Shown here: in pieces, positions 33,759 through 56,611 of the stretch
Position numbering within the stretch: the stretch's first letter is position 1
Layout: the number at the start of each line of letters is the position of its first letter
Origin: Pirellulaceae bacterium
GTDB taxonomy: Bacteria > Planctomycetota > Planctomycetia > Pirellulales > Pirellulaceae
Assembly (NCBI GenBank): GCA_020852965.1
Contig: JADYZV010000026.1
Span: forward strand, 1 to 64,000
Direction: 5' to 3'
DNA: 64,000 nt
The notes under the pieces: model-generated
Seen by the model: only the letters and a program-made list of their open reading frames with translations
Told to the model about the DNA's origin: nothing
Databases searched by the model: none
Translations under genes and position numbers: made by a program

Positions 33759-34784
33759 ATGCAACATAAAAATTCGCGCAGCGCGTTCACGCTGATTGAA
33801 TTGCTGCTTTCGCTTGCGCTGATTGTGGTGGCGACGGCTCTGGTAGGCTCGTTGATGCAGATGTTCTCTCGCAACTTCGCTACGCGCGGCGATGACATTC
33901 GTCGTGAACAATTAGCTCGGGCACTACTCAGCAAGATTGCGGACGACGTCCGCGCCGTTATCCTTCCTCAAGAGTATGACTCGAGCGTGCTAGAACAACT
34001 ACTCGGGGCAAGCGGTGGATCGAGTGCCGCTGACGCGCAAGCCGCCACCGACTCAACTAGCTCTCTGGCTGGCTCCACCAGCCCGACCGACTCGTCCAGT
34101 ACGACAGCCCCAGCCAGCGGCGGGGAGCTGTCCACGACGGTCACCACCAGCCTGCCGCCGGGTATCTACGGAGACCAGTATTCATTGATCGTTGACGTCA
34201 GCCGCATTCCACGCCCCGACGAGTACAACATGCAAACGGCGAGCATGTCCGATCCCTTCATAGCCGATGTGCCTGGCGACATGAAGACGGTCACCTACTT
34301 CATCCAATCGCCGACAAATATGGGAGTCGATGATACGCTGGCGCAGTTCGAGACGACAAATGGTTCGTCCAGCGGGCAAGCCAGCGGACTGGTTCGCCGC
34401 CAGCTCGATCGGGCCGTCACCGCTTATGCCGAAGAGATGGGAAACACGCAACGCTTGCAGCGCACGGGCGATTTGCTTGCCCCCGAAGTGGTCGCGCTCG
34501 AGTTCGCTTACTTCGATGGGGTCGATTGGTTGACTGAGTGGGACTCGTCCACGCAGTCGCTGCCGTGGTTGGTCGAAATTACGCTAGCCATGCAAACCGC
34601 TACAGCCGGTGAGACGACGCCGTTCACTCCCGGCGTTTCCATTAGCCTGCTCCCCCATGCGGATCGCCAAGCCTACGGAATCGAAGTTTATCAATTGGTT
34701 GTCGCCATACCCGGCGCGCAATTGCACGCCGTCGATGCCGCATCGGCCGATCAAGCGGCAGGAATGGAGTCGATGGGCTTATGA
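33759..34784 (+). CDS. GspJ-type minor pseudopilin
   Basis: A 341 aa protein. The leader MQHKNSRS precedes A|FTLIELLLSLALIVVATAL, a classical prepilin cleavage site with the conserved Glu. The helix continues with LVGSLMQMFSRNFATRGDDI. A Ser/Thr-rich linker (about 90-130) interrupts the beta domain. The C-terminal half has VVALEFAYFDGVDWLTEWDS then LPWLVEITLAMQ, which resembles the GspJ FxxYDG / W...P..V pattern. The stop overlaps the next ATG by four bases. It is larger than typical GspJ (about 200 aa) because of the linker. Confidence 0.87.
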   Translation: MQHKNSRSAFTLIELLLSLALIVVATALVGSLMQMFSRNFATRGDDIRREQLARALLSKIADDVRAVILPQEYDSSVLEQLLGASGGSSAADAQAATDSTSSLAGSTSPTDSSSTTAPASGGELSTTVTTSLPPGIYGDQYSLIVDVSRIPRPDEYNMQTASMSDPFIADVPGDMKTVTYFIQSPTNMGVDDTLAQFETTNGSSSGQASGLVRRQLDRAVTAYAEEMGNTQRLQRTGDLLAPEVVALEFAYFDGVDWLTEWDSSTQSLPWLVEITLAMQTATAGETTPFTPGVSISLLPHADRQAYGIEVYQLVVAIPGAQLHAVDAASADQAAGMESMGL

Positions 34785-36727
34785 AATCACCAAGAACTTA
34801 TGACGATCGACATATGCTGCCACGACGCGGCGCAATTGCGTATCGCACGATGGGTCGGCAAAGCGGTTTTATTCTGTTATTAGTTCTCGTCGTAGTGGCG
34901 ATTGCATCGCTTGCCACGTTAACCTTCTCGCGGTCGATGTTGATTACGCATGAAGCCGCGCGAATTTCAACTGGGCAACTGCAAACGCGGATGTGCGCCG
35001 AATCGGGTGCACAGGCCGTGCGTTTGATGCTCGCCTATCCGCACACTGAGCGACTGGGCATGGGGGGCACCTGGGACAACGCGGCCATGTTCCAAGCGAT
35101 CAATGTCATCCCCGACAACGATCCGGCGCGGCGTGCTCACTATACGATCATCTCCCCCAGCCTCGATGAAGCGGGCTACTACACCGGCCTGCGTTATGGA
35201 CTGCAAAACGAATCGGCCAAACTGAACCTCAACGCGCTCGCCCAGCTCGACGCACTCGCCTCGGCCGGAACCATGGCTGCCGCAGCCGTTGGTGGAGGTG
35301 CCCTCGGTGGTGAGACAAGTGGTGCGGGGAGCGGCCTGGGCAGCTCCATGTCGTCACTGGCCAGCACAGCCGCCGACGGCACGTCGCCTTCGATGGCTAG
35401 TGGCATGTTGATGGCCTTGCCAGGCATGACCGAAGATGTCGCCGATGCCATCCTCGACTGGCTCGATAAAGACGAAGAACCACGACCGATGGGGGCGGAA
35501 TTCGACGACTACTATCTACACTTGCCAAACCCGTATAAACCCGCCAATGGTCCGATCGAGTCGATTGAACAACTGCTGTTGGTGCGTGGCGTCACACCGC
35601 AGTTGCTGTTTGGGTACGACGAAAATCGCAATGGAGTGCTCGATGCGGCCGAGTCGACTCGGATGAGCCGGGGCACGCCTGCCGGATCGGCGCCCGGATC
35701 TCTCCCCGCAATGTCGAGCGATCCGAACATCGCACCGCCTCCGCCACTGGGCTGGGCCCCCTACCTTACGTTGCAAAGCTTAGAAAAAAATGTGGCTGCT
35801 GATGGCACGCAGCGCGTCAACATTAACTCGGATGACATGGAACTGCTGGCGGAAGACCTCTCCACCGTGTTGCAGAGCGAAGATTGGTCCAGCTTTATCT
35901 TGGCCTATCGCTATGGAGGCAAGCCGGGTGGTGCGGGCACGAGCCCACTGTTGGCTCTGGCCAGCATGGCTGCAGCGGACAGCGAGCAGACCGATGGTGC
36001 CCTGGGGGCTCAGCTACAAGGTTTGAACAATGCCGCTCAGGGAAATAGTGGCGCTGGCAATACCGGAGCTGGTGGTAGCCAAGCAAATGGTGCGCCCCCA
36101 CCGCGTTGGACGGCTGACCAAATCTCTTCGATCGATCTCACGCAAACTGGATCGGTAAAGTTCAATCAGGTGCTCGACCTGATTGACGCAACCGTCACCA
36201 TCAATGGGTCGGCCGGTGCGGTGACCTACGCTTCGCCACTGAGCTCCTTGCCGCTCGACTTGGCCAATTCGACGCCACAATTGATGGACTACTTAACCAC
36301 CGTCGATGCACCGGCAATCCCTGGGCGGATCAACATCATGGAATGTCCACAGGAGATCTTGCGTGGCATTCCTGGACTTACCGACGAAATGGTAGACCAG
36401 ATCCTCGAGGCTCGTGGCGATGGCTCCGATAGTCCAACTCGCCAGTTTGAGACTTGGTTAGCGGTGGAAGGAATTGTGACCATGGATCAAATGCGAGCTA
36501 TCCTGCCGCTGGTGACCTGTGGCGGCGACGTATTCAAAGCTCAGATTGTCGGCTATATCGAAGGTGGTGCAGCCTTTTCACGCATCGAAGCGATCATCAG
36601 CGGCGCTGGGGACGTTCCGAATATTTTGTTTTTTCGCCGCATGGATCACTTGGGACGTGGGTTTGATATTCACACCTTGGGACAAAGATTCGACGCTAAC
36701 CTACCGACAGGGCCCTCGATACGATGA
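34781..36727 (+). CDS. gspK: GspK-type pseudopilin-tip protein
   Basis: A 648 aa protein. A short basic start leads into GFILLLVLVVVAIASLATLT, the GspK-type transmembrane helix. Two helix-hairpin-helix-like regions of GspK follow: LPGMTEDVADAILDWLDKDE with PYKPANGPIESIEQLLLVRG, and IPGLTDEMVDQILEARGDG. GspK caps the pseudopilus and its saddle binds metal. The protein is about twice the size of classical GspK, with an extra middle region including a Gly/Asn-rich stretch. It overlaps gspJ by ATGA. After its stop comes a 365 bp gap. Confidence 0.9.
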   Translation: MKSPRTYDDRHMLPRRGAIAYRTMGRQSGFILLLVLVVVAIASLATLTFSRSMLITHEAARISTGQLQTRMCAESGAQAVRLMLAYPHTERLGMGGTWDNAAMFQAINVIPDNDPARRAHYTIISPSLDEAGYYTGLRYGLQNESAKLNLNALAQLDALASAGTMAAAAVGGGALGGETSGAGSGLGSSMSSLASTAADGTSPSMASGMLMALPGMTEDVADAILDWLDKDEEPRPMGAEFDDYYLHLPNPYKPANGPIESIEQLLLVRGVTPQLLFGYDENRNGVLDAAESTRMSRGTPAGSAPGSLPAMSSDPNIAPPPPLGWAPYLTLQSLEKNVAADGTQRVNINSDDMELLAEDLSTVLQSEDWSSFILAYRYGGKPGGAGTSPLLALASMAAADSEQTDGALGAQLQGLNNAAQGNSGAGNTGAGGSQANGAPPPRWTADQISSIDLTQTGSVKFNQVLDLIDATVTINGSAGAVTYASPLSSLPLDLANSTPQLMDYLTTVDAPAIPGRINIMECPQEILRGIPGLTDEMVDQILEARGDGSDSPTRQFETWLAVEGIVTMDQMRAILPLVTCGGDVFKAQIVGYIEGGAAFSRIEAIISGAGDVPNILFFRRMDHLGRGFDIHTLGQRFDANLPTGPSIR

Positions 36728-37092
36728 ATTGCAGTTCACTTAAGTTCTTCGGCAGCGCGGTATGCTTGCCGAAGCGATCGATTGTTTAACCGCGTAGCGC
36801 GCCGCATGGTGGATTGAGACCGAGAAGACAGCCCCTGTTGCACCGGTGGTCGCCCCAATGGGTGTCGCAATTGGACTAAGCATTGGTCGCGCTGCGCGGT
36901 TCATCAGATCAGATTGGCTCCGAGCCGTCAAATTAGCGTCAGACGCCGGATGGAGCGCAAGGCCTCGAGCACTAACGCCAAAACGGCTGAACCTAGAATT
37001 AAATGTTACAAAGCACCTTGGGTCAATTAAAATAGAGCTTTGCGGTCCTTGTTGACACAAGCCATGCACCAATTTAGAGAAGACGAAATCCA
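36728..37092. other. 365 bp gap before the PilM-like gene, no gene
   Basis: No convincing gene or repeat was found. The following coding start is a GTG at 37093, with AGAGAAG about 12 bases before it as a possible ribosome binding site. Confidence 0.5.
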
Positions 37093-38679
37093 GTGTCCAA
37101 AAAGACCATCATCGATTGGCAGCGCGATAGTTTGATCGTGGCAGTGGGGCAAGCCCACAGTGGCACGGTGGTGATCGACCGACTGAGCCAGCAGGCGATC
37201 GGGCACTCAGCGGAGAGCGCGGCAAACGAGCAAGACGAGCTCTTGCCACTCAATGGCGATGCGGCGCAGGGTCTAGTTCGAGCCGTCGATGAGCTGGGGC
37301 TGCGCAAGAGCGACGTAACAATCATTCTCTCGCGAGATTTGGTCGAAGTGCGGACGCTCTCGATCCCGCGCATCGAAGCTGCCGAGCTACCGGATGTGAT
37401 TCGTTTCCAAGCTCAGCGACAATTGGCCAACATGGGAGACGCCTGGACACTTGACTACGTGCTGTTACCCGACGCACCTGGTCAAGAAATGCTCACCGCC
37501 CTGGTCGGTGCCATTTCACCAGCTACGCTGCAAACGATTGAAACCGCATGTGAGCAGGCTGGTATCACGCCGTCCCACATTGTGCTACGTCCCATTGAAA
37601 TCGCACGCTTTGTCATTGCCTCGGGAAAGCTGCCCGGTAATGAGCCGGCGTTGGTCGTCTGTTTGTCGGAGCAACATGCCGATCTGCTCATCCTCGAACA
37701 AGGTCGAATCGTTCAGGTTCGCAGCACCAAGCTTCCCAGCGAAGCAGCTCAATGGCAGGCCGCACTCGGTGGCGAACTGCGGCGTAGCCTGATGGCCGCC
37801 GCTGTGCAACTGTCCAACAAGTCGGTCAGGCACGCGCTGCTGATCGCCGCTCCTGCAGCGACGCAAAGTGCAGCCGAACTATTGTCGGAAATGCTCGACT
37901 GCCAAATTGCGTTCATTGATCCAGCCAGTTTGCTTTCCGCCGAGGTGTCGCAGCAACCACAGATCGTCGAGCACTCAGCCCATCGCCTGGCGGGTATCGC
38001 CGGTAGTTTGAGTCTGCCCACGGCCGCTGGCGATTCGAAGCTCGACTTCAAGGCCCCCAAGAAGCGACCTCCGCCACAGAAGAGCACTCGCACGTACGTG
38101 TTGGCTGCGGTCGCTGCCTTGCTGTTGTTCGTTGGAGGATTGACATGGTGGCTCAGCGTGCAGCGCAAGCTCGATGATCAGTTGGCGCATTTTCAATCGG
38201 AAATAGAGAGTCGCAAAGCGGCTATTGCTACGGCGCAAGAACGCGTCACCCATGTACAAGAGATCGATCGCTTTCTGCAAGCTGCCCCAAATTGGCTCGA
38301 CGAAGTGGCCTATCTGGCCGAGAGAATCCCCCCCTCGGACAAGGTTTTGATAGGCGAACCCACCTTCATGGTTTTGAATGATGGGAGCGGTCGCATTACT
38401 ATGCCGGTGGCCGTCGATTCGTCGCTAACGATTAAAGCCTTTGAAAGCTCACTACGCGACGAGCATTATGGGGTGACTGGCTCGAAATCCACCATGCTCG
38501 AGACACCCCTGTTCGGCCGTTACCATTGGCGCATCGATGAAACGATCACTGTGCGTGGCCGTGGTTGGGATCTCGTCTCCCAGCTCGACACAAGCCGCTG
38601 GGCCGGTAAAACGCCCGACGCGACTCCCAATTCAGCGACTCCCAGCACACCAGTATCCGCGGCTCAAACCAACAACTGA
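37093..38679 (+). CDS. PilM/GspL-like actin-fold assembly protein with PilN-like extension
   Basis: A 528 aa protein starting at a GTG. The cytoplasmic part (1-320) resembles PilM/GspL: IILSRDLVEVRTLSIPRIEA, then ELPDVIRFQAQRQLANMGDA. It also has a beta pattern with LVVCLSEQHADLLILEQGRI. One membrane segment lies at about 335-355 (YVLAAVAALLLFVGGLTWWL), followed by a coiled-coil-like periplasmic helix and a PilN/GspL-like ferredoxin fold domain. GspL recruits GspE to the membrane in T2SS; here the PilM and PilN modules are fused in one chain. The gap to the next gene is 10 bases, so the two are co-transcribed. Confidence 0.82.
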   Translation: MSKKTIIDWQRDSLIVAVGQAHSGTVVIDRLSQQAIGHSAESAANEQDELLPLNGDAAQGLVRAVDELGLRKSDVTIILSRDLVEVRTLSIPRIEAAELPDVIRFQAQRQLANMGDAWTLDYVLLPDAPGQEMLTALVGAISPATLQTIETACEQAGITPSHIVLRPIEIARFVIASGKLPGNEPALVVCLSEQHADLLILEQGRIVQVRSTKLPSEAAQWQAALGGELRRSLMAAAVQLSNKSVRHALLIAAPAATQSAAELLSEMLDCQIAFIDPASLLSAEVSQQPQIVEHSAHRLAGIAGSLSLPTAAGDSKLDFKAPKKRPPPQKSTRTYVLAAVAALLLFVGGLTWWLSVQRKLDDQLAHFQSEIESRKAAIATAQERVTHVQEIDRFLQAAPNWLDEVAYLAERIPPSDKVLIGEPTFMVLNDGSGRITMPVAVDSSLTIKAFESSLRDEHYGVTGSKSTMLETPLFGRYHWRIDETITVRGRGWDLVSQLDTSRWAGKTPDATPNSATPSTPVSAAQTNN

Positions 38680-38689
38680 TTGACCGAAC

Positions 38690-39886
38690 ATGGCGATGAC
38701 AAAACGAGAGCGATTGTTGGCGATAGGCGTAGGGGTTGCCGTCGGCCTATTTGGGTTGCAAACTGCGGTTAGCTCCGTCAGTAACCGCTGGCAAGCCAAA
38801 CAAGACTTGGTCGATAGCGCCCGCGCCGACTGGGAGGCGATGCAACGCATCGAGACGGCCGGCACGATCGCCGAGCGCCAATTGCAACAATTGAATGCTA
38901 AATCTCTGCCGAGTAAGCAAGAGACGGCGGTTGCCGAATACAGCGCCTGGCTGCACAAAATCGCCTTGGATACCGGCGTAACCAACATCGTAGTCACGCC
39001 ACCTGATCGGCCTGAGAGAGAGTCTCTGGCGTATAAAGAGTATAAGTTCATATTGTCTGGCCAGTGTCGCATCGATCAATGGCTCGATCTTATGGCGACC
39101 TACTACGATGCAGACTTTTTGCACAAAATGCAGACGATGAAATTGACTCTGACAAGTGTCCCGAATGTGATCAGGATCGTCGTAGACTCTCACGCCCTCG
39201 CCTTGAACAGTGCCGCGCCCAATCAACCCGCCAGCGGTTTATCTTCGGGGCGACTGAGTAGAACGGTTGATGAATACAAGCAAGTCATACTCAATCGCAA
39301 TCAGTTTTCCCCACCCAATCAGGCACCCACATTTGCCGGTCCACGCAGTTTTGAAATACCGCGTGGTACGCCCTGGGAGCAGATCCTCAAGACGGAAGAT
39401 GCAGAGAACCACGAAGTGACGCTGAGCCTGGATGGTGACTCGCTGCCTGAGGGGCTGCGCCTAGCTGGGAAGACGCTCAAGTGGACACCGACCGAGAACG
39501 GCGAGTTCCAGCTCACGCTGCGCACAACCGACGATGGCTGGCCCAGCGCTACGCACGAAGAGAAGCTAACTTTAAAAGTCGTCGATCCTCTGCCAGCCGA
39601 AGAGCCTGCGGCCGAACCGGCCAAATTCGACGCAGCCACACAAGCCTTTGTCTCAGGTTTGGTTAGCGGCCGCGCGGGGAGTGAAGTCTGGATTCACTCG
39701 CGAACCGAAGGCAAGACGCATGAGCTCTCGGTGGGCTCCACCTTCGAGATCGGATCGATCAAAGGCAAAGTGATCAGCATCAATCTCAATGAAGACTTTG
39801 TCGAATTAGAGAGCGACGGCAAGCTCTGGACGGTCGGCATGGACACATCGCTGGCCGACGCCTTCGCCAAAAGTAAAATAGATTAA
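38690..39886 (+). CDS. GspM-like protein with Ig-like and PilP/GspC-like C-terminal domains
   Basis: A 398 aa protein. The N-terminal hydrophobic segment (LLAIGVGVAVGLFGLQTAVS) and a coiled-coil helix lead into a PilO/GspM-like ferredoxin fold (YSAWLHKIALDTGVTNIVVT, then QCRIDQWLDLMATYYDADFL). Residues about 215-300 resemble a cadherin/Ig-like 'putative Ig' domain (EIPRGTPWEQILKTEDAENH, LRLAGKTLKWTPTENGEFQL). The C-terminal 85 residues (VWIHSRTEGKTHELSVGSTF and VISINLNEDFVELESDGKLW) resemble the HR domain of GspC or PilP. If right, the GspC function is fused here, which would explain the absence of a separate gspC. It is the last gene of the locus. Confidence 0.72.
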   Translation: MAMTKRERLLAIGVGVAVGLFGLQTAVSSVSNRWQAKQDLVDSARADWEAMQRIETAGTIAERQLQQLNAKSLPSKQETAVAEYSAWLHKIALDTGVTNIVVTPPDRPERESLAYKEYKFILSGQCRIDQWLDLMATYYDADFLHKMQTMKLTLTSVPNVIRIVVDSHALALNSAAPNQPASGLSSGRLSRTVDEYKQVILNRNQFSPPNQAPTFAGPRSFEIPRGTPWEQILKTEDAENHEVTLSLDGDSLPEGLRLAGKTLKWTPTENGEFQLTLRTTDDGWPSATHEEKLTLKVVDPLPAEEPAAEPAKFDAATQAFVSGLVSGRAGSEVWIHSRTEGKTHELSVGSTFEIGSIKGKVISINLNEDFVELESDGKLWTVGMDTSLADAFAKSKID

Positions 39887-40078: not shown

Positions 40079-40981
40079 TTATTTTTCGACCCAGGTTCCG
40101 TCGAAGGAGGTGCGACGACGTAGGTCGTCGATCGACATCTGGTGCTTGCCAAAGTTCACGTGCTCGATGTCGGCGAGCTCGGTAGGAACACGCGGAGGAA
40201 GTCGAATCGTGCGTCCGCGCGCATCGATCAAGCTGGTACCGTTGGTCGAGTTGAGGTCTTCAATGGCTATGGTCGCATTGTCAAATAGTATGCGAGCGTG
40301 AAACGAGGAGACGGTATGATCAGGGATGCATACTTCGCATTGATCGCTGCGCCCGACAAAACCAACGCGTTGTCCACGTAGTGATGCAGGAAAGAAAGAG
40401 GTCGGCAGCTTCAATCGCGTATCGCGGCCGAGAATGATCAAATCGCTGGGAGTGGCCTTGGACGGACGTACGACACGCGAAAAATTCAAGTAGGTCCCGT
40501 TGGTCGATTTGAGGTCACGCAGGATCACTTTTTCGGCTCGACGCATCACCGAGCAGTGAATGCCCGAGATGATGGGCAAGTCGATCACGATATCGCAATG
40601 ACGATCGGAACCGACTATGAGTGTTTCTTCGCTGAGCTGTTCTTCGTAGGTACCATGGCGATCTCCATCTGCCTCGCGTTGCAGCTCAGCCCTTAGTCGT
40701 TCGTCGTAGAGCTTGCGCTTTTCTGGCTTCAGCAAGCAGATCTTGGCGGCCTCAATATCGTTGAGAAGATCTTGGCCTCGTTTTTCGTACTGGTTGATCC
40801 CCAGCCGTTTTACATGCGCGCGCTGACGATCTGCCGCGTTGCGAATGACCTCGGCATTCTGCTCGAACAGTCGCACTCCCAATAGTCGATAGTGCGACGG
40901 CGGCTGTTCGTCAGGGGGGATACCCAACCACAGGTGATATGCGTCGTATTCGTCCATCGCACCGTACCCGAACTCAGCCAT
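40079..40981 (-). CDS. Degenerate J-domain protein with two FHA domains
   Basis: A 300 aa protein. The N-terminus (about 12-95) carries the planctomycete WLGIPPDEQPPSHYRLLG segment, then AEVIRNAADRQRAHVKRL and LLNDIEAAKICLLKPEKRKL, followed by YDE. The layout is that of a DnaJ J-domain (YxLLGV, helix II, KRxxYD), but the HPD loop that triggers Hsp70 ATPase is absent. Two FHA domains follow: ETLIVGSDRHCDIVIDLPII with LKSTNGTYLNF, and RVGFVGRSDQCEVCIPDHTV with LNSTNGTSLI. Both keep the Arg/Ser/Asn residues used to bind phosphothreonine. It overlaps the upstream hsp70 stop by 8 bases, so the two are translationally linked. Its likely role is to deliver phospho-partners to the adjacent Hsp70; this is inferred. 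Confidence 0.85.
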   Translation of the reverse strand: MAEFGYGAMDEYDAYHLWLGIPPDEQPPSHYRLLGVRLFEQNAEVIRNAADRQRAHVKRLGINQYEKRGQDLLNDIEAAKICLLKPEKRKLYDERLRAELQREADGDRHGTYEEQLSEETLIVGSDRHCDIVIDLPIISGIHCSVMRRAEKVILRDLKSTNGTYLNFSRVVRPSKATPSDLIILGRDTRLKLPTSFFPASLRGQRVGFVGRSDQCEVCIPDHTVSSFHARILFDNATIAIEDLNSTNGTSLIDARGRTIRLPPRVPTELADIEHVNFGKHQMSIDDLRRRTSFDGTWVEK

Positions 40982-42929
40982 CCAGCACCGTTTGAAGTTC
41001 GCGGGCCTCGTCTAAGAAGCCATCGGCTTTGGTATCGACCAAATTTCCGACAATGCACTCGCGTCCCAGTACGACTAACGAATGATCCAGCAGTCGCATC
41101 GAGTGCTCCCAAGCCATTTTGAGTTGCGCCAGTTGTCCGGCCAGCTCCAAGCGATCCTGGAATCGTTCCGTCTGTTGATGTCGCATTTCGAGTTGCCGAA
41201 TGAGCTGTTTGAGAGTGGTCGTTTCTTGTTGCATCGAGCCGACGAGGCGATGTGTCTGAACGGCACTGGCCGGTGGCGTCGCGTTGACCGACAGCTTGCC
41301 AACGAAGCGATACAGTTCATCTAAACGGGCGATGACCTTATCTTTGTCAGTCCGATCGGCCAAGGGGAGCGCCGCCGGGCGGCCCGCCAATTGAGTCAAA
41401 ACATCCGTCGATTGGATGTCACCGCCGGAGGTCAGCCGCGCCGTCCACACGTCGAGCGATTCTAGCGTCGAGTAGCCGTCGCGGCGAATCTCAACGTAGG
41501 CCGCCGTATTGTTATGCGCCAATTTTGCCGTTACGGATATGGTACCATTGGCGGCGTAATTGCAAATGACTTTGATGCCAGTACCTTTGGGCAATGGCAC
41601 GTCGATTTTGACTAGGCATTCTCCGAGAAGAGTGCAGAAGTCTGGATTTTCGCTCTCCCCTTCCAGCAGCGGCACTTTGGCATTGCGTTGGCCGTCGCGC
41701 GAGGTGACAAAGCTGTAGATGCGTGAGGCGGGCAATGGGGTATTGCGTGGGATCAAGATCTTATTGACCTTGTGCTTGGTGGCCGCATCGGTTCCACGCA
41801 CACCCAAGCTATGCGCATTGACGTTGACCACATCGAAGCGCGCGGCTGCATCGAGAATATCGCCCCGTTTGGTGGCTGCGTAGAGAGCTGCCCCATGGGC
41901 GATCAGCTCGTCCGGGTTGCTAGCCAATCGCGGCAGTAGCCCCGACAGCTCTTGGGCCTTGGCCGCAATCAGCGGAATGCGGCTCGAACCTCCCACCAAA
42001 AGGAACTCGTCAATTTCATCCCAACTACTCCCAGCGGCCAAAATAACATCGCGCGTAGTGGCCATTGAACGTTCGACCAGCGGTTCGATCGCATCCTCGA
42101 AATCCTCGCGCGCCAGTTCAAACTGAACACGCATCCCATCGCACTCGAAGTCAACGGGGACACTGGCTTGCGTGGACAATACGTGTTTCAGCTCGCGCGC
42201 ATGCTTCCATAGCTTTTGCATCTCCACAATATTCTGACGCGGGTCGATTCCGTGGCGGTCGCGGAATTGATCGGAGATGATGGCGATGATGCGTTCGTCG
42301 AAGTCGCGTCCGCCCAAGTAGATATCCCCGTCGGTGCCCAGCGCGCGGAACGTGCGATCGGCAAACTCGAGTAGCGTGACGTCGAACGTCCCCCCTCCCA
42401 AATCGTAAACTAACAAGCGCCGCGGCTTTTCGTTGGGCTTCGAGTCGATCATCATCTCATGCCCCAGTGCGATGGCCGCTGCTGTAGGCTCGTTGATTAT
42501 GTCGAGCACCTCTAGGCCAGCCAACTGGGCAGCTTGTTGCGTCGCTGTACGCTTGCGCTCGTCGAAATAGGCTGGCACGGTAACCACCGCCGAGTTGACA
42601 TCTCCACAGTGGGAACGGACGTTGGCGAGCAGGTGACGAATCAGGAAGCCCGTTAGCACCTCGGGGGGAACCTGGGTCGAGCGAATCTCGCGGCTGTAAT
42701 GCGGTTTGCCAATATCGCGTTTGAATGCTTCCGCCAAGCCCTCTGGGTCTCGCAATCCCAGCTCGAGCGCGCTTTCACCAACGACGATATTGGCGTCGAA
42801 ATAGATAGCGCTGGGGATCAAGTGCCTTCCCACCGGACCACTAACGACCTCGGGGCGTCCGCGACTATCGACGATCGACGCCAGGGACGTGGTGGTTCCT
42901 AAATCTAATCCTAAACCGGCGCGTTGCAT
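40974..42929 (-). CDS. Hsp70/DnaK-family ATPase, FHA-operon paralogue
   Basis: A 651 aa Hsp70 homologue. The nucleotide-binding domain has GLDLGTTTSLASIVD (phosphate 1), AVVTVPAYFDERKRTATQQA, INEPTAAAIALG, YDLGGGTFDVTLLEF (phosphate 2) and LLVGGSSRIPLI (adenosine motif). The substrate domain begins near residue 390 (VVNVNAHSLGVRG) and includes IPRNTPLPASRIYSFVTSRD, close to the DnaK IPRNTxxP sequence. The C-terminus is a helical region without the DnaK lid end (no EEV-type tail). It sits 6 bases after the pseudokinase stop and overlaps the J-FHA gene by 8, which marks it as a dedicated chaperone and not the housekeeping DnaK. GrpE is not encoded nearby. Confidence 0.95.
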   Translation of the reverse strand: MQRAGLGLDLGTTTSLASIVDSRGRPEVVSGPVGRHLIPSAIYFDANIVVGESALELGLRDPEGLAEAFKRDIGKPHYSREIRSTQVPPEVLTGFLIRHLLANVRSHCGDVNSAVVTVPAYFDERKRTATQQAAQLAGLEVLDIINEPTAAAIALGHEMMIDSKPNEKPRRLLVYDLGGGTFDVTLLEFADRTFRALGTDGDIYLGGRDFDERIIAIISDQFRDRHGIDPRQNIVEMQKLWKHARELKHVLSTQASVPVDFECDGMRVQFELAREDFEDAIEPLVERSMATTRDVILAAGSSWDEIDEFLLVGGSSRIPLIAAKAQELSGLLPRLASNPDELIAHGAALYAATKRGDILDAAARFDVVNVNAHSLGVRGTDAATKHKVNKILIPRNTPLPASRIYSFVTSRDGQRNAKVPLLEGESENPDFCTLLGECLVKIDVPLPKGTGIKVICNYAANGTISVTAKLAHNNTAAYVEIRRDGYSTLESLDVWTARLTSGGDIQSTDVLTQLAGRPAALPLADRTDKDKVIARLDELYRFVGKLSVNATPPASAVQTHRLVGSMQQETTTLKQLIRQLEMRHQQTERFQDRLELAGQLAQLKMAWEHSMRLLDHSLVVLGRECIVGNLVDTKADGFLDEARELQTVLDG

Positions 42930-42935
42930 GGCGTG

Positions 42936-44678
42936 TTACTTCGTTTCAGCCGTGGGTAGTGGATTCTCGGAAACCTGACCGCCGAGCGTATCGACGTCTG
43001 ACGCGTTGCTCTGCTCAGGTGCCCGTGGTTGGCTATTTTGTGATTGGCTTTTCTCAGGTGCCGTCTGCTGCAATTCGGGTGCTGCTTGTTCGGTCCCTTG
43101 CTTCTCGATCACTGTCGGTGGCGACGTGCTTGGGAACAGAAACACCGCCAGCAGCACTAGAATTCCTACGACTGCAGCAATGATCGTGTTGGTCAGGTTC
43201 TTGCTCCGTGTTTTGGGGGCGCCCCTGGAGACAACATTGGCCGCTGTGGTAGTATCGTGTTTTTGAGTTGCCTGTGCTCGATGCGTCGCAGTCATTGGCG
43301 CCGCAGCGACAGGCTGCCCCGCCGGGGAACGCGCCGGCGATTGCATTGGCGGCATCTGCTGCTGCGGTAATGGTGCTGCCTCCGGCGCGGGACGCTTCGC
43401 CGGTCCGGCGGCCGGTCCTCGCGGAGCGTGGGGATGCGAAGGCAGAAAGCGATCGACCAAGGCTCGCACGGCGACTCCACCGCTCTGCATTGTGAACTGA
43501 ACATCAGGGCCACGCGACGAAAGCCGCACGATGTCGCCGGAGCGCAACGGTGACTTATCTTCGAGCAGGTGTTGATTGACGAATGCCGAATCGCCCGCTA
43601 CACGCAATACGTACCATCCCTCGGAACTGCGACGCATGAGCACTTTGCCACTCCCGTGTGGGTACTGCTCACTGGAGAAGCGGAGGAAGCAGTCGTGGTC
43701 GAAACCAATCATCAATTCGTTGTCGTTGGTGCCAATCATTTCCCCGGCTCGTGTTCCCGAGGCGATAGCCAGCACGATTCCGGTAGCTGGCCGCTCGACC
43801 ACGTGGGCTGAAAGCACTTCACGCTTAGCCTGCGTGGCGACAGCCTGCGTGGCGACAGTCTGCGTGGGGAGCCTGGATTGGACCGTGATGTCTTGAGGCA
43901 AGTCGTCGAAGGCCTGTCGCGCCGAACGGTAGCGTTCGCTCGGCTGTTTGGCTACCAATCGCGCGATAACCGCCGACAATTCCGCAGGGCAGGTTTTCGA
44001 GAACGAATTGGCGCTCGGGGCTTCTTGCGAGGAGCCGTGCCATTGGAACCAAGCCACGTCATCGTCGGCAGCGTCGTCACGGATTCCTTGAAAGGCACGG
44101 CCAAAGTGGTCACCAGCCAAGAGCTCCAGTGCCATAAAGCCGACGGCGTAGAGATCCGTAGCCGGCGTCATCGGGCCGAACTCTTGGCGGATGTGTTCGG
44201 GGGTCAAGTACTTTTGATTGCTGGGCGGTGGCAAGGTAAGCGGAGCGTTGGCACTAATCAACAGACCGTCGCTCAAGCGGGCTCGGCCGTCGCCATCAAA
44301 GAAGACATTGGTCGGTTTAAGATTGGCATGCAACCAACCTTGCTCGTGCAGCTGTGCCAGGGCTGCCAGAATTCCACGCAGCGCGTGCAGCACCAACCGC
44401 GGATCGGAGTGACCTTCTCTCAGCCGAATGGCAGCGCTGCGGTCGAATCGTTCCATCACCACTTCATTCCGCTCGGGAGCCACTTCCAAGTAGGGGACCA
44501 AGCCAGAAATGTTCAGTGTCGTCCAGCGCTGGGCGGCGGTGAAAATGAGTTCGTGTTCGATTTTGGACAGCGGCTGACGATTGTATTCCTTGAGGGCAAA
44601 GTGCGTCCCTTGAGGCGTCTGATACTCAGAAACCGTAGCGAATTTGCTGACTCCAATTCGGCGAATCGGTTTGGGCAT
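42936..44678 (-). CDS. Membrane-anchored Ser/Thr pseudokinase with FHA domain
   Basis: A 580 aa protein with a kinase fold, an FHA domain and one C-terminal membrane segment. The Gly-rich loop is degraded (RIGVSKFATVSEY, one Gly). Lys30 (ALKEY) remains. The catalytic loop is HANLKPTN (117-124), so the essential HRD Asp is Asn119; the DFG position reads SDG (136-138). Thus phosphotransfer is unlikely, though ATP binding may persist. A C-lobe APE-like TPEHIRQEFGPMTPATDLYA is visible. The linker has VATQA repeats (from 15-bp DNA repeats near 43832-43870). The FHA part is about 295-385, then a Pro-rich linker and the TM TNTIIAAVVGILVLLAVFLF. A strong GGAGGA ribosome binding site lies about 12 bases before the ATG. 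It is first in the operon. Confidence 0.88.
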   Translation of the reverse strand: MPKPIRRIGVSKFATVSEYQTPQGTHFALKEYNRQPLSKIEHELIFTAAQRWTTLNISGLVPYLEVAPERNEVVMERFDRSAAIRLREGHSDPRLVLHALRGILAALAQLHEQGWLHANLKPTNVFFDGDGRARLSDGLLISANAPLTLPPPSNQKYLTPEHIRQEFGPMTPATDLYAVGFMALELLAGDHFGRAFQGIRDDAADDDVAWFQWHGSSQEAPSANSFSKTCPAELSAVIARLVAKQPSERYRSARQAFDDLPQDITVQSRLPTQTVATQAVATQAKREVLSAHVVERPATGIVLAIASGTRAGEMIGTNDNELMIGFDHDCFLRFSSEQYPHGSGKVLMRRSSEGWYVLRVAGDSAFVNQHLLEDKSPLRSGDIVRLSSRGPDVQFTMQSGGVAVRALVDRFLPSHPHAPRGPAAGPAKRPAPEAAPLPQQQMPPMQSPARSPAGQPVAAAPMTATHRAQATQKHDTTTAANVVSRGAPKTRSKNLTNTIIAAVVGILVLLAVFLFPSTSPPTVIEKQGTEQAAPELQQTAPEKSQSQNSQPRAPEQSNASDVDTLGGQVSENPLPTAETK

Positions 44679-44903: not shown

Positions 44904-46799
44904 ATGACGTCATCGTCTCAATCCGGTACTGGTTGCTCGATCGCCAGCGAGCTTTTGGCGGCCATCGCGCGCAGCAAAACGGCCAGTGAATTTCGCGAAC
45001 ATGCCTTGGCGGCCGTCGGTGGCCAGTTTGGCCAAGCGCGAGTGGCCTGGGTCCACCAGCATGGCGCCCACTGGGAAGTAGCCGGTTCGGCTGGCTCATT
45101 GGCCCAGCTTCCCATCGAGCTAGCCGCTTCGTCGTGCGAACAGATGTCGGTACTCAGCGCCGGAGGCTGGCTAGCTGTGCCAATCGCCGGACGATTGCAG
45201 GCCCCTGAAGTTCTGTTGCTCAGTCCTGCCAACATGGTCGACGCAGACGAAGCGGAGGCGATGAGCCACATGCTTCGCAGCGGATTGGTCATCGCCAAAG
45301 ACAATTCCGAACTGCAATCGCGCGTCGAGCAGTTGCAAACACTCTTGCAACTCGCCGCCGATTGGCAGCAGAGTCATGATCTGACTGAACTGCTCAGCAA
45401 CATGGCCGTAGCCGCCGCGCGCGTGCTACACGGCGATCGCGCAAGCATTTTCTTGTGGGATAAATCGGCGAATCAATTGGTCGGTCATCCAGCCATGGGC
45501 GTGGAAGGGGGGGACCTGCGCATTCGCGATGATCAAGGAATTGCTGGACTGGTGCTCAAGAGTGGACAAGCCGAACGCTGGGACATGTCGGGCGATCCAG
45601 GGGCGATCAACGCCAAAGTGGGCCAGCAGCTCGGTTACACCACGCGTTCTTTAGTCGCCGTACCGCTGCTCGATCGACGCCATCGTCCGCTGGGGGTCTT
45701 CGAAGTCCTCAACCATCGCTCGGGGCAGTTCACCAGCGAAGACGAACGTTTTTTGTCCGAGATGGCTCGGCACGCTGCAGCGGCGGTCGAAAACACACAG
45801 CACATCGCTTCGTTGATCAAGAGTCGCGATCGTTTGGTGCAGAGCGTCTCCGAATCGCTACAATTAATTGGCGACTGCCCGCAGATTCGCGCCCTGCGCG
45901 ACACCGTCGCGCGCGTGGCTCCGACCGAGTTGGCGGTACTCATCCTCGGCGAAAACGGGACCGGCAAGGAGGTCATCGCGCGTAGCCTACATCTGCAAAG
46001 CAACCGCCGGGATCAAGCCTTCGTTGCCGTCAACTGCGCGGCGATCGCCGAAACGCTTCTCGAAAGTGAATTGTTCGGTCACGAAAAAGGGGCCTTCACC
46101 GACGCGGTTAGCGAACGCGCCGGCAAATTCGAACTCGCCACTGGCGGCACGCTACTGCTAGATGAGATTGGTGAAATGAGTGTGGGAGGACAAGCCAAAC
46201 TGCTACGCGTGCTGGAGGACAAAGTGGTCGTGCGTGTCGGTGGTAGCAAGTCGATTCAAACCGATGTACGCGTCATCGCAGCCACCAACCAGGACCTGGT
46301 CAAGCTCGTCCGGGAGAAACGATTCCGCGAGGATCTCTATTTCCGCCTAAACGTGGTCACCTTGCAATTGCCCCCCATGCGCGAACGTGGGGATGATGTG
46401 ATTGTGTTGGCAGAACATTTCTTGCAGCAGTTCGGCCACCAGATTGGTCGTCCGCCGCCGACTCTTTCCGCAGCCGCACGCAAACGGCTGCTCGCGCACG
46501 CTTGGCCAGGCAATGTTCGCGAACTGCGAAATTTGATGGAACGCGTGGCCTACCTGACTAGCGGACCTGTGGTCGAGGAATCGGATCTGGCCTTTGTGCT
46601 TTCGCCGCTGTCGTCGGGCGACGTGGCCCACGTGCCCGCCAATATGACCCTGGCCGATGCCACCTCGACATTCCAACGCCAATACATCGCCAGGCACGTC
46701 GAATCCGCCTCCGGCAATCTGGCGGCGGCCGCCAAGCAATTGGGAATGCATCGCTCGAATCTCTACCGAAAAATGCAGCAGCTCGGTATGAGCGAGTGA
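44904..46799 (+). CDS. GAF-domain sigma-54-dependent transcriptional activator
   Basis: A 631 aa regulator. The ATG at 44904 was chosen; an open frame continues upstream only as antisense of the pseudokinase gene. Order: an N-terminal sensor-like region (30-150), a GAF domain (about 165-300: DRASIFLWDKSANQLVGHPA, SLVAVPLLDRRHRPLGVFEV), the AAA+ domain with Walker A GENGTGKEVIA (about 345), then FGHEKGAFTDA in the sigma-54 contact loop, Walker B GGTLLLDEIGEMS, RFREDLYFRLNVV, and a C-terminal Fis-type helix-turn-helix (LAAAAKQLGMHRSNLYRKMQ). The GAFTGA consensus reads GAFTDA. It should activate sigma-54 promoters on sensing a small molecule or redox cue; the target may include the divergent operon, but no binding site was identified. 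Confidence 0.93.
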   Translation: MTSSSQSGTGCSIASELLAAIARSKTASEFREHALAAVGGQFGQARVAWVHQHGAHWEVAGSAGSLAQLPIELAASSCEQMSVLSAGGWLAVPIAGRLQAPEVLLLSPANMVDADEAEAMSHMLRSGLVIAKDNSELQSRVEQLQTLLQLAADWQQSHDLTELLSNMAVAAARVLHGDRASIFLWDKSANQLVGHPAMGVEGGDLRIRDDQGIAGLVLKSGQAERWDMSGDPGAINAKVGQQLGYTTRSLVAVPLLDRRHRPLGVFEVLNHRSGQFTSEDERFLSEMARHAAAAVENTQHIASLIKSRDRLVQSVSESLQLIGDCPQIRALRDTVARVAPTELAVLILGENGTGKEVIARSLHLQSNRRDQAFVAVNCAAIAETLLESELFGHEKGAFTDAVSERAGKFELATGGTLLLDEIGEMSVGGQAKLLRVLEDKVVVRVGGSKSIQTDVRVIAATNQDLVKLVREKRFREDLYFRLNVVTLQLPPMRERGDDVIVLAEHFLQQFGHQIGRPPPTLSAAARKRLLAHAWPGNVRELRNLMERVAYLTSGPVVEESDLAFVLSPLSSGDVAHVPANMTLADATSTFQRQYIARHVESASGNLAAAAKQLGMHRSNLYRKMQQLGMSE

Positions 46800-47023
46800 G
46801 CGATTTGCCTGAAAGAAGGAGCTGCTCCGACGGGCCTCTTGGGACGCCTGGCATTTTTTTAAGTTGGTTGAAGCACAGCCTTTAGGTGCCTTGGAATGCA
46901 GAACTCTGTACGAGCGGCTAAAGCCCCGACTCCCGCGCGAAATGGTGCTGTCCAAGTAGGCAAATGGCCTATAATGAATGCGTATTGGCTACGAATATCA
47001 AATCTCTGGGAGAAGCGTTTAGC

Positions 47024-48232
47024 ATGAATCGGAATTCACACACAAGCTCGTTGTGGCGAGTCAGGTTGCTAGCTGGACTAATGATGTTCTCGCTCAGCCT
47101 CGCGCTCCACGGCTCTCGCACGCTTGCCGACGAAGGAGACGCCGCCAAGGCCAACGAACCAAACGAGTCTCCACCGAGGCCCGCTCCGCAAGTTGACGAA
47201 GGGACATCCGAACCTACCCAACGTGCCTTCGAAATGAACCCAAGCGACGAGTCGCTGGCGCATGCGCGCGCCCTGTCGTTTGCCTTTCGCAATTCGGCTC
47301 AAAAGGCACTCCCCTCCGTGGTCACGATTTTTAGTCGCTCGAAGGAAGCCAGTGCAGCCAACCCCGTGCTCGACATCATCGGCGGCGAACGCGCTCAAAA
47401 GTTCGATAGCGTCGGCTCCGGTGTCATCATCAGCAGCGATGGTTTGATTCTGACCAATCACCATGTGGTTGCGGACGCCGCCATCATCGAGGTGCGTCTA
47501 CAGGATGGCCGACAATTTCGCGCCGAAAACCCGAGATCGGATCCACAAAGCGATGTGGCCATTTTGAAAATTGATGTCCATGGTGGACTTCCCGCTGCCG
47601 AGATCGGCGATTCGGATACCCTCTTCGTGGGCGATTGGGTCATCGCCATCGGCAGTCCATTTATGATTGAGTCGTCGGTCAGCGCAGGGATTATCAGCGG
47701 CATGGGGCGCTACCAATCGCTGTCGCGAAGTGTCAAAGGGCAGTTTCTGCAAACCGACGCAGCGATCAACCCCGGCAATTCCGGAGGACCATTGCTCGAT
47801 TTAGAAGGCCGCGTGGTCGGCATCAACACCGCCATCTCGTCGCGTTCCGGCGGCTTTGAAGGGATTGGCTTTGCGATTCCAATCAATCGGGCCATTTGGA
47901 TCAAGAACGAACTGCTCAAACACAATAAAGTGCGTCGCGCCTACGTAGGTGTGAGCGCGTCGAGCGTGCCTTACGATCTCGCTCAGCAGTTGGACCTTCC
48001 CGACAATACCGGCGCGCTGGTCAACCGGGTCGTCCCCGGTTACCCTGCAGCCAAAGCGGGCTTGCGAACAGGGGATGTGATCATCGATTTCGCCGGTGGC
48101 CGCGTACATTCCAACGCAGGCTTCGCAGAATTGGTGCTGCAATCGCCGATCGGAATAGCGCTACCCATGACGATCATTCGCGATGGCCAGCGACTCGAAC
48201 TGCAATTGGAGTTGGTTGAGAAGCTGGAATAG
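47024..48232 (+). CDS. HtrA/Deg-family periplasmic serine protease with PDZ domain
   Basis: A 402 aa protein. ATG at 47024 follows GGGAGAAG and starts a signal peptide (AGLMMFSLSLALHGSRTLAD). The trypsin-like triad is clear: His in TNHHVV (about 146), Asp in SDVAILKID (about 177), Ser in NPGNSGGPLLD (about 252). A C-terminal PDZ domain (about 305-395: RAYVGVSASSVPYDLAQQLD, GYPAAKAGLRTGDVIIDFAG) ends the protein; only one PDZ, as in DegS-like members. It degrades or refolds envelope proteins. It lies 224 bases after the activator, so a separate promoter is likely. Confidence 0.95.
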   Translation: MNRNSHTSSLWRVRLLAGLMMFSLSLALHGSRTLADEGDAAKANEPNESPPRPAPQVDEGTSEPTQRAFEMNPSDESLAHARALSFAFRNSAQKALPSVVTIFSRSKEASAANPVLDIIGGERAQKFDSVGSGVIISSDGLILTNHHVVADAAIIEVRLQDGRQFRAENPRSDPQSDVAILKIDVHGGLPAAEIGDSDTLFVGDWVIAIGSPFMIESSVSAGIISGMGRYQSLSRSVKGQFLQTDAAINPGNSGGPLLDLEGRVVGINTAISSRSGGFEGIGFAIPINRAIWIKNELLKHNKVRRAYVGVSASSVPYDLAQQLDLPDNTGALVNRVVPGYPAAKAGLRTGDVIIDFAGGRVHSNAGFAELVLQSPIGIALPMTIIRDGQRLELQLELVEKLE

Positions 48233-53010: not shown

Positions 53011-54765
53011 TTAGAAATCGCAATTCAGTCGCGTCCCGAGAATGGTGAAGTTGCCGCCATCAAAGCCAGCTACAGGACGGTGTTCGCGAATGTCACCGAA
53101 GATAAGATTGGTTTGCACTTTCGCATAGGCATTCCAGTGCCAATTCAAGCCGAGCGTAAAGTTCTGCGCGACGCCACCGGCAATATCTTGGTCGGTTAGG
53201 TCGAGATAATCGTATCTCGCGATGATTTGCCAGGCGCCCCAACCTCTGCCGTCGTGTCGACCACACATTCGGTCGGCCAGGAAAAAGTTCTTGTGCGGCT
53301 TGACGCGGTCGAGTGTCCCCGATGTCCGATCATAGGCTATGTGTTCGCCAGTCAGAAAGTAGGCACCATAGATATAGAACCCATGAAAGAAAGTATCGGG
53401 TCCAGTCCCCGGGGTATTGCTGTCGCGTTGTAAGAAGCTGACCATGTATTCGCTGGTCAATTGAAATGGCCCGTTATTGATGATGCTTTCTGCCGCTAAA
53501 ATCTCGTACCAATTGGCACCCGCAATCGGCCCCGTATCGAGCCATCGTGTGTCGGTACGCGCCTCGGGACGAGTGCGAAAGCGTCCTTCGTTACGGTTCG
53601 TTACTCTCGACCTAGCATCGCCGCCATCGGGATGCGCAATCGCCCCGGCTATTGCCAAGTGGCTGTAGCAACGTCCGTCCGTCGAGTACGATGGGCTGGC
53701 AACCAAGCGACCGTAGCCAGCCATCTGCAACGAGTCACCAGTGTACCGCCCCGTGGCGGATGTATTTTCCAGATTAAAAATACCGTATCGCCAATTGAGC
53801 GATTCATCATCGGAGTAACCGTATAGGCAAGCACCGATGCGCCGTGAATCTTGATTGAATGCCTCAACCACCAACGGCCGTTCCATAAACACGTTGAAGC
53901 GTGAGCTATTGAGGTGATCCAATCCGAGTGGGCGCTTCTGATTGCCCACCAATAAAGAATGATTTCCCGACAGTTCATTCCAACCCAAATAGACATCTTT
54001 GTATTCAGGGATCGAGGGATTATTGAAATCTATCTGCATCCGCCACAGCATGTGGGTGGGAATATCGCCCTGCATTTCCAGTCGAATTCGGCGAAATAAA
54101 AAGCGATCTTCCGGATCGTCGCCGTAGTTGGGTAGGGTTGGGAAGGGATGCTCTAGGAAACCCAGCCCAGGTTGGTTGGCCGGAAAAGTCCAGTAATCGA
54201 GGTGAATCCGGCCACCCAGCTCGAAGGTCGGCTTCTCTTTTGCCGCATCGTCGGCCTCCTTCTTCGCGTCGGCTTGCGTCTGGAATTGGTCTTCCAACTC
54301 CTTCAAACGCTCATCAAACTTCTTTTGCAGCGCTTGCAGCTCTTTTGTTGACTCGTCGGCGCTCGGCTCGGTGTCAGCCGACAAACCCTTTTCCGCTTCG
54401 AGGTTCTCGCTTCTACTGGGCGCCCCCGCAGCGGATGCGACTGGACTCTCAACGGACTCCTGCTTACTTTCCGCCTTCTTATCGGCCGCTGCCGCCGGGA
54501 GTGTCTCTTGCGCCACCGACCGCCAAGCTGGTTGCCCCTCGAGTAGCGCGGGCAGGCGGTCCAACGGAACTTGTCCAGATGCGCTGTGCGAGAGTATTGC
54601 CAATGACAACAAACTAGCGAACACTAGCGAGCGGTTACTTGCATGAAAAGCCAACGGACTGATCCCTTTGCCGAAACCGACCACAAGTAAAGCGAAGGAG
54701 GATAGACTACTGTGGATAGCTCGGCATCTGTGTAGGTGGCGATTGCGGTATCTGATATACCGCAT
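53011..54765 (-). CDS. OprO/OprP-like outer-membrane porin
   Basis: Up to 584 aa; the start is uncertain because the frame overlaps the end of the upstream TPR gene (54707). A signal-like stretch NRSLVFASLLSLAILSHSAS precedes SGQ, so a non-ATG start near 54654 is possible. After an acidic coiled-coil part (about 125-165: TKELQALQKKFDERLKELED) comes the barrel, with FELGGRIHLDYW, RLEMQGDIPTHMLWRMQIDF, DVYLGWNELSGNHSLLVGNQ and KRPLGLDHLNSSRF. These match the phosphate-selective porin OprP/OprO family. The protein ends in Phe (TRLNCDF), the usual outer-membrane beta-barrel signal. Substrate is probably phosphate or another anion. Confidence 0.88.
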   Translation of the reverse strand: MRYIRYRNRHLHRCRAIHSSLSSFALLVVGFGKGISPLAFHASNRSLVFASLLSLAILSHSASGQVPLDRLPALLEGQPAWRSVAQETLPAAAADKKAESKQESVESPVASAAGAPSRSENLEAEKGLSADTEPSADESTKELQALQKKFDERLKELEDQFQTQADAKKEADDAAKEKPTFELGGRIHLDYWTFPANQPGLGFLEHPFPTLPNYGDDPEDRFLFRRIRLEMQGDIPTHMLWRMQIDFNNPSIPEYKDVYLGWNELSGNHSLLVGNQKRPLGLDHLNSSRFNVFMERPLVVEAFNQDSRRIGACLYGYSDDESLNWRYGIFNLENTSATGRYTGDSLQMAGYGRLVASPSYSTDGRCYSHLAIAGAIAHPDGGDARSRVTNRNEGRFRTRPEARTDTRWLDTGPIAGANWYEILAAESIINNGPFQLTSEYMVSFLQRDSNTPGTGPDTFFHGFYIYGAYFLTGEHIAYDRTSGTLDRVKPHKNFFLADRMCGRHDGRGWGAWQIIARYDYLDLTDQDIAGGVAQNFTLGLNWHWNAYAKVQTNLIFGDIREHRPVAGFDGGNFTILGTRLNCDF

Positions 54766-55705: not shown

Positions 55706-56073
55706 GATTAGAACTCCGGAAGGTATACGCGGCGGTGAGCGTGAGCTTCGAGCCGACTGGGCGCAGTGGTAGCAGACCCGCAGTATTGTCTTTATCGCTA
55801 CAATCGGACTCGGCGACTGGATTGCTTGAGCAATTGCGGTTGTTTCCCGGCGATCGAGCACGGATGAAGCAATACCAGCAACAGCCCCACAGTGCTAGTG
55901 GGAAACGCAAACGAATGCTTCCATGCTACTATGGCGGACGGTATTGCGGCTTGGCGATTGTCAAGAAACCGTTTTGGGACTCGTAACCTCGTCCACTACA
56001 CCTCGTCCACTACACCTCGTCCACTACACCTCGTCCACGACCACCAACCCTAGAATCTAATAGGGACCGAGCA
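55706..56073. other. 368 bp intergenic region with a family A repeat array
   Basis: The region holds the 5' leader of the TPR lipoprotein and the array at 55967-56039. No further gene is supported. Confidence 0.5.
55967..56039. repeat. Family A right arm expanded into a 14-bp tandem array
   Basis: The inner right arm GGACTCGTAACCTCGTCCAC is followed by the 14-bp unit ACCTCGTCCACTAC at 55986, 56000, 56014 and a partial unit at 56028. No left arm is present. Confidence 0.9.
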
Positions 56074-56388
56074 CTAGGCAGCGCGTCGACGCTCTGGCTC
56101 GAATTGCCCAGAATCTGGATGCGAATCTAGGTGAGCTTCATACTCATGAATGCACGCAATCGCCGATGTCGACTTGAGCAGATCGCCACAAGGACTGAAA
56201 AATTTAATTTCGTCCTCCTCGATGAACAACACGACGTGGTAGCCCGAACACTGGAATTTTCTACCACAGAATAGACCATTTCGAATCAGAATGGACTCGC
56301 CCACGGAGTCGGTCCCGGTAGCACCAAGCTGGCTCAATTGTTGAGCGACAACCAAACGGATTTTCTCGACAGGTGTAGTAGCATTCAT
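56074..56388 (-). CDS. Small conserved-looking protein of unknown function
   Basis: A 104 aa protein from ATG 56388; the longer frame upstream has low-quality composition and was not used. AGGA lies about 13 bases before the ATG. The sequence has an N-terminal helix (PVEKIRLVVAQQLSQLG) and a beta-like core (ESILIRNGLFCGRKFQCSGY then HVVLFIEEDEIKFFSPCGDL). Two central Cys flank a hydrophobic core. No family was recognised. Antisense or shadow origin seems unlikely because the composition is protein-like and the helix-strand layout is good. Confidence 0.65.
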   Translation of the reverse strand: MNATTPVEKIRLVVAQQLSQLGATGTDSVGESILIRNGLFCGRKFQCSGYHVVLFIEEDEIKFFSPCGDLLKSTSAIACIHEYEAHLDSHPDSGQFEPERRRAA

Positions 56389-56611
56389 GGATCTTTGACA
56401 TTCCTGTGAGAATTCTAGTGCGTAGGTACTTACTTTCCAAAGATCGGCCTCTGCCACCGTAGTCTTCAGATCAGAATTCCCAGCCGACAAACGCTCCGCA
56501 AGCCTCCCATTTTGAAGTGAAATTGGCCACCACTTTTTGCTACGTCTTTTTGTTATGCTATGTCGAGTGCTTAGTTGCCCCCAGGTAGTTGTCACGGACA
56601 TTTGTTTCCCC

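Follow-up and report, generated by a model that had tools for sequence, protein, structure and literature searches.

A pseudokinase, Hsp70 and J-like/FHA gene trio in a Pirellulaceae genome, and the Hsp70 branch and J-like family represented in it

Do a kinase-fold protein, an Hsp70 and a J-like protein whose genes lie end to end form a single chaperone machine, and does such a link reach beyond one locus? The question is raised by positions 40,079 to 44,678 of a 64,000-nucleotide stretch from a Pirellulaceae bacterium of the phylum Planctomycetota (the window: assembly GCA_020852965.1, contig JADYZV010000026.1, positions 1 to 64,000 of the forward strand), which a preliminary description had proposed to hold a chaperone signalling operon. 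The trio itself is rare. The stronger finding is that its Hsp70 branch and its J-like family, both without the canonical docking residues, yet occur together. We put at about one in two the probability that the trio is one transcription unit whose products make up a phosphothreonine-guided Hsp70 machine tethered to the membrane, as a specialised member of an Hsp70/J-like system of planctomycetes. The features of the trio are as follows (aa, amino acids; E, expect value; AF2, AlphaFold2).

42936..44678, minus strand: pseudokinase P0003, 580 aa, with an FHA-like domain and one predicted transmembrane helix (Pkinase E 4.6e-18; HAN replacing HRD; AF2 model; PknB matches)
43911..44663, minus strand: kinase-fold domain of P0003, residues 6-256, catalytic Asp replaced by Asn119 (Pfam, sequence, AF2 model)
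43488..43778, minus strand: FHA-like beta-sandwich of P0003, residues 301-397, without GR, SxxH or NG (AF2 strands; sequence)
43137..43199, minus strand: predicted transmembrane helix of P0003, residues 494-514 (AF2 helix; hydrophobic sequence)
40974..42929, minus strand: Hsp70 P0002, 651 aa, of the non-Arg167 branch (HSP70 E 3.6e-94; residue tables)
42501..42503, minus strand: Asp codon at the DnaK R167 position, in LEVLDIINEPT (residue tables; signature scan)
40079..40981, minus strand: J-like + FHA + FHA protein P0001, 300 aa (Pfam; sequence; AF2 model)
40688..40948, minus strand: J-like domain of P0001 without HPD, K58-R59-L60 near the HPD position (AF2 helices; A1 profile E 3.7e-41, the profile being of 8 rows with the window J-like sequence among them)
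40427..40618, minus strand: FHA1 of P0001, residues 122-185, without the phosphothreonine-contacting Arg (Pfam FHA; sequence)
40133..40369, minus strand: FHA2 of P0001, residues ~205-283, with GR, SxxH and NG (second Pfam FHA stretch; strands; sequence)

Docking residues of the Hsp70 branch and the J-like family

In the excerpts of two papers on the DnaK/DnaJ pair, DnaK R167 and Q378 are described as holding DnaJ Asp35 (PMC8215388), and HPD and its contact with R167 are regarded as central to the way in which J-proteins control Hsp70 (PMC8215388, PMC13012618). P0002 is an Hsp70, as had been proposed, by its Pfam match (over residues 6-486) and its retained ATP-site Lys70, and aligns at full length with homologues in two genomes of the order at 42% (G059) and 40% (G046) identity, and over residues 5-501 with one in a third at 43% (G041). 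At the positions of R167, Q378 and D393 it carries Asp, Tyr and Asn, so that the canonical J-docking site is absent. The same holds across the branch: among 37 aligned rows, window included, R167 was replaced by Asp in 36, Q378 was kept in none, and linker D393 had become Asn in 32 (10 of 47 rows were left out of this table: one fragment without the site, and nine rows removed by hand because they were Arg-type or divergent paralogues). Other residues were kept (K70 in 37 rows, P143 in 36, P419 in 37, N170 in 36, L484 in 32), and on this alignment the branch retains the residues sampled for the ATP site and the client signal. In the window genome's housekeeping DnaK, R167, Q378, D393 and D477 are all in place. 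More widely, Q378 and D393 were present in 25/25 Arg167 Hsp70s, and Q378 in 2/67 of the non-Arg class, in a set made up of all listed rows of the Hsp70 search to E 6e-78 minus the window's, taken regardless of any J-like neighbour, and of hand-picked DnaK-type rows serving as controls. Hsp70s adjoining J-like genes in other families (f40, f60, f86 and f97) carry Ser or Gly at position 167.

The J-like region of P0001 had no Pfam match, and in NCBIfam reached DnaJ_bact at E 0.18 only. The family profile, compared with solved structures, placed DnaJ J-domains first with a weak E of 0.006, and Pfam DnaJ matched 11/33 family members (best E 4e-4). An AF2 model of P0001 (33 rows, mean predicted local distance difference test score, pLDDT, 88.7) has helices at residues 43-60, 63-84 and 86-105, a layout that fits a J-domain, with K58-R59-L60, the stretch at the HPD position, lying within the end of helix II; in the excerpt of one simulation study, the P34A substitution extends helix II into HPD (PMC13012618). 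A fold search with the P0001 model returned FHA-type structures only in its top 50 and is therefore no test of the J-like part. As had been described, HPD is absent (the window reads HVKRL) and two Pfam FHA stretches follow (E 9.5e-29). HPD occurs in none of 112 distinct J-like domains; 106 of them have Arg or Lys in the column at window K58, and 97 have Phe or Tyr in the next-but-one column, in a set where the Gln type of other families is under-represented because the profile used lies close to the window class.

A scan of all GTDB species with the J-like profile gave 269 relatives, and 75 of the best 80 carried Planctomycetota-type titles. Planctomycete-type J-like genes were also seen in records titled Nealsonbacteria/Peribacteraceae (L082, L126 and L132, JABMRB; L093 and L099, JAQVVD), which may reflect wrong titles or mixed bins.

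Co-occurrence of the two families

Across 392 genomes of the phylum, a DNA signature for the Asp167 site matched 34 (reversed control, 0) and the J-like profile 69. A J-like match was found in 32/34 genomes with the signature compared with 37/358 without it (Fisher 2e-25), and lay within 5 kb of 27/38 signature sites; genome relatedness is left in by the co-occurrence tests. In the window's genome, the signature site and the strong J-like match inside the window are the only ones. In the loci examined the signature recovered 81/90 Asp167 Hsp70s and matched 0/60 other rows. When Hsp70s were instead taken from the set of search rows and DnaK-type controls described above, a J-like gene lay within 5 kb of 25/67 non-Arg Hsp70s and of 0/25 with Arg167 (Fisher 1.2e-4, one gap row aside); within 3 kb, none was seen beside the 36 Arg167 Hsp70s of the loci examined. 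These counts, 25/67 and 27/38, are fairer than the fraction of adjacent genes among the 59 Hsp70/J-like pairs considered below, which is biased because those loci were picked for a J-like or signature match.

A two-gene unit in which a J-like protein of ~340 aa comes after an Hsp70 of ~525 aa was observed in 12 genera of the order and at 17 further loci of the same class (within L184-L198 and L294-L311, not at every locus; for example L184:4977-7558). The J-like protein of L184 joins the J-like domain to an MshEN domain.

Several observations weigh against a joint system. No J-like gene lay within 5 kb of 42/67 non-Arg Hsp70s, and an Hsp70 was present in just 5 of the 80 best J-like scan loci, many of them cut by contig ends. 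Two genomes of family f31 had the signature without a detected J-like domain (G068:C12:122949 and G244:C23:16510). Conversely, 37 genomes had a J-like match, in some cases weak, without the signature; among the 20 of these that were examined, some had Ser-, Gly- or Asn-167 Hsp70s and some only Arg- or Lys-type Hsp70s in the loci read. The register between J-like domains and DnaJ is uncertain by about one residue. Nor are the other J-docking positions diagnostic: E. coli HscC and HscA also lack D211 and have D477 altered, and position 217 is non-Glu in many Arg167 DnaKs of the sampled genomes, for which reasons loss of the whole acidic J-docking patch was rejected as a mark of the branch.

The absence of HPD and the replacement of both main Hsp70 contacts could be taken to mean that the branch gave up J control and works as a J-independent Hsp70, the J-like domain being a degenerate scaffold that links FHA domains to a target other than Hsp70; the few Hsp70s among the best J-like scan loci would fit this. 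We consider it unlikely, given the 32/34 co-occurrence, the 27/38 adjacency and the recurrence of the ~525 + ~340 aa layout, which are hard to explain without joint working of Hsp70 and J-like protein.

How the partners might touch is suggested by residue charge. In 59 Hsp70/J-like pairs, scored at position 167 and at the J-like column, 42 were acid/basic, three acid/other, 14 neutral/other and none neutral/basic (Fisher 5e-11; one neutral/other pair is a gap row, one J-like gene of G096 enters two pairs, and a single genus, g163, supplies four Ser/Gln pairs). Two results count against reading this as a specific contact: with 58 pairs placed on a tree, position 167 switched between acid and neutral only twice, the J-like state following in 1.8/2 on average, and the pair of columns ranked 483 of 41,251 column pairs. 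With only two independent changes on the tree the covariation cannot reach significance, and because of this and of the rank we keep a swapped salt bridge at 167 as a hypothesis. Tentatively, planctomycetes might possess a second Hsp70/J system, parallel and orthogonal to DnaK/DnaJ through a re-wired contact, in which the bridge between DnaJ Asp35 and DnaK Arg167 would be replaced by J-like Arg/Lys against Asp167 (window class) or Gln against Ser/Gly (other families), and in which many J-like proteins would bring such Hsp70s to different places at the membrane or in signalling; the trio would then be a version guided by phosphothreonine.

The trio: conservation, kinase and FHA domains

The three open reading frames, all on the minus strand (40079-40981, 40974-42929 and 42936-44678), are packed as had been described, with a 6-base gap between the pseudokinase and Hsp70 genes and an 8-base overlap (-8) between the Hsp70 and J-FHA genes. 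The synteny search that the preliminary description had proposed as a check went against conservation: beyond the window the full trio was seen in none of 59 relatives searched, and the Hsp70 signature was found in 0/14 genus relatives (six of which are <90% complete). In the genus sample of 15 genomes that of the window was alone in having both the Asp167 signature and a strong J-like match; the other 14 had weak J-like matches only (10 genomes, E 6e-7 to 8e-4) or none (four), and an Arg167 control signature matched 12/15. An alignment of the Hsp70 C-terminus (A2) matched two of the 392 phylum genomes, the window's own and one weakly, a weak negative in that at most the best eight candidates per genome were scored. 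The hypothesis of a conserved trio was rejected within the genus.

Elsewhere only parts of it were found. Partial trios occur in three genomes of the order: in G059 a pseudokinase (loop HLN) adjoins the Hsp70, and a J-like + FHA + FHA protein is encoded ~24 kb away; in G046 an FHA-like membrane protein and an Hsp70 are accompanied by a protein with two FHA domains and no J-like match; and in G041 an FHA-like membrane protein and an Hsp70 are joined by a J-like gene that lies three genes upstream from that of the Hsp70 and scored higher with a canonical-J profile. A stand-alone J-like + FHA + FHA gene (G020, L242:5576-6553) has a clpX-like gene as its neighbour, and its 12-kb locus gave no Hsp70 match.

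The lack of conservation of the full trio is what one would expect were these ordinary neighbours, unrelated signalling and chaperone genes packed by chance, and the right flank, which the 12 genus loci fetched do not share, agrees, several of these loci ending early. The 6 and -8 base junctions, and pairwise links that recur in other families, make chance packing improbable. The trio converges with a type II secretion gene 192 bases away, and 225 bases upstream lies a divergent sigma-54 activator gene (start taken at 44904). A promoter and terminator scan found no excess over shuffles. As to a recent insertion, the left flank, of type II secretion genes, is common to the 12 genus loci, and the GC content of the unit (0.576) is near that of the window (0.570), so that the trio carries no foreign signature.

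Two further features of the surroundings were seen. Upstream of and divergent from the trio, window 44904-48232 holds an HtrA-like gene (trypsin/PDZ) and the sigma-54 activator, which has a GAF domain. The type II secretion genes (window 34781-39886) end at a variable junction, and in L065 (G005) homologues of window 54707-56856 stand directly next to them, which suggests that the region holding the trio has been rearranged.

The membrane protein had been described as a kinase fold with an FHA domain and no catalytic Asp; fold, missing Asp and a predicted membrane helix stand, and the other domain is FHA-like. With motifs located by eye, the catalytic loop has the sequence HANLKPTN (H117-A118-N119, Asp replaced by Asn119), and the VAIK-type Lys (K30), loop K121 and N124 and the DFG-type Asp (D137) are kept. 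P0003 accordingly falls outside the active Hanks-type kinases, its catalytic-loop Asp being replaced (HAN in the window, HLN in G059). Its AF2 model (13 rows, mean pLDDT 72) shows the kinase part, strands over 301-397 and a long helix at 494-514, and a fold search with it put PknB chains on top. At 18 loci with the best other matches to the P0003 kinase, the loop had Asp in 10 (8 HGD, 2 HRD), read HAS or HGA in three, all genus relatives, and fell outside the loop pattern in five. The kinase-like proteins of those genus relatives (L224, L228 and L233) are related to P0003, and two of them are ~1,550-1,590 aa long.

Kinases and this kind of Hsp70 are also joined outright. An N-terminal kinase domain was found in 8/114 non-Arg Hsp70s (two gaps and one Lys at 167 among the 114) and in 0/36 with Arg167, with the catalytic Asp present in 8/8 (L043, L057, L075, L164, L168, L169, L266 and L267). 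These fusions support the kinase–chaperone link of the preliminary description, which, with co-occurrence and adjacency, extends beyond the locus; the window trio would be a split form of that link, its kinase minus the Asp. The window's own genome holds, at L004, a kinase fused before a divergent Hsp70.

One might go further and regard the trio as a kinase-signalling module. A kinase-like receptor would then have the Hsp70 as its output or its own chaperone, the J-FHA protein would provide feedback by recognising phosphothreonine linked to the kinase, and clients in general would not be delivered. The eight fusions, all with catalytic Asp, and a kinase gene directly upstream of the Hsp70 in both the window and G059 speak in its favour; the kinases of the window and G059, however, lack that Asp, and in G046 and G041 no kinase domain accompanies the FHA-like membrane protein and the Hsp70, which renders this reading distinctly unlikely. 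A phage-defence or conflict system of pseudokinase and chaperone is highly improbable. PADLOC kinase families did match P0003 (best E 3.1e-20), as they might any such kinase, and Hsp70, GrpE and DnaJ occur in some conflict systems according to the excerpt of PMC7159879, but PADLOC matched neither the Hsp70 nor the J-FHA protein, and a Pfam scan of four flanking proteins recognised no effector. The defence reading was set aside as unsupported.

A phosphothreonine-binding FHA domain has the GR, SxxH and NG residues. The proposal that FHA domains steer the chaperone by phosphorylation fared differently from domain to domain: FHA2 of P0001 has all of these (GR, SSFH, NGT), whereas FHA1 reads GS, the Arg missing, and the FHA-like domain of P0003 lacks all three, the binding residues being absent from its homologues in G059, G046 and G041 as well. 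Since the P0003 domain also has no Pfam match, it is probably no binder of phosphothreonine. Binding residues are thus missing from two of the three FHA domains of the trio, a further point against phosphothreonine guidance. That phosphorylation is made elsewhere, as was originally suggested, would fit the missing catalytic Asp of P0003.

In the membrane-tethered, phosphothreonine-guided machine that we favour, the trio would be transcribed as a single transcript, and the J-like domain would partner the window Hsp70 through an altered contact. FHA2 would bind a client or partner whose phosphothreonine another kinase has made and would hand it to the Hsp70, and the pseudokinase may bind ATP without phosphorylating and anchor or gate the complex at the membrane. 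Physical pairing of Hsp70 and J-like protein, control of the ATPase and delivery of phospho-clients are what we infer from the residues, the neighbourhoods and the counts given above.

Comparison with known systems

Among the top matches in open-licence PMC, as far as titles and the starts of abstracts go, none concerned a planctomycete HPD-less J domain, an R167-less Hsp70 or an FHA-J-Hsp70 operon, and prior mention is possible. A family in which HPD and its R167 contact are both replaced and the genes remain neighbours would amount to an orthogonal chaperone pair occurring in nature, and would directly test how far J control depends on that contact. Through the trio, in which a chaperone is coupled to a pseudokinase and to a reader of phosphothreonine, bacterial proteostasis would be connected with Ser/Thr signalling.

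GAP1-N2 conflict systems resemble the window in having an Hsp70 and a J-domain partner in one neighbourhood; as the excerpt of PMC7159879 describes them, they differ in being GTPase-centred (no GTPase was found among seven window proteins scanned) and in their J fusion. The kinase–Hsp70 fusions (L043, L075, L168) share with the window a kinase domain before a non-Arg167 Hsp70, but are fused rather than split, keep the catalytic Asp and have no Pfam FHA match in these three loci. For HscC/DjlC and HscA/HscB of E. coli, likewise, annotation places the gene of a dedicated J-type partner near that of a divergent Hsp70; unlike the window branch, HscC and HscA keep R167, Q378 and D393. With E. coli DnaK/DnaJ, finally, the window branch shares the order of Hsp70 domains, a neighbouring gene for a J-related helical domain and the sampled ATP-site residues, and differs in that R167 and Q378 are replaced, linker D393 is mostly Asn, and the J-like domain is without HPD.

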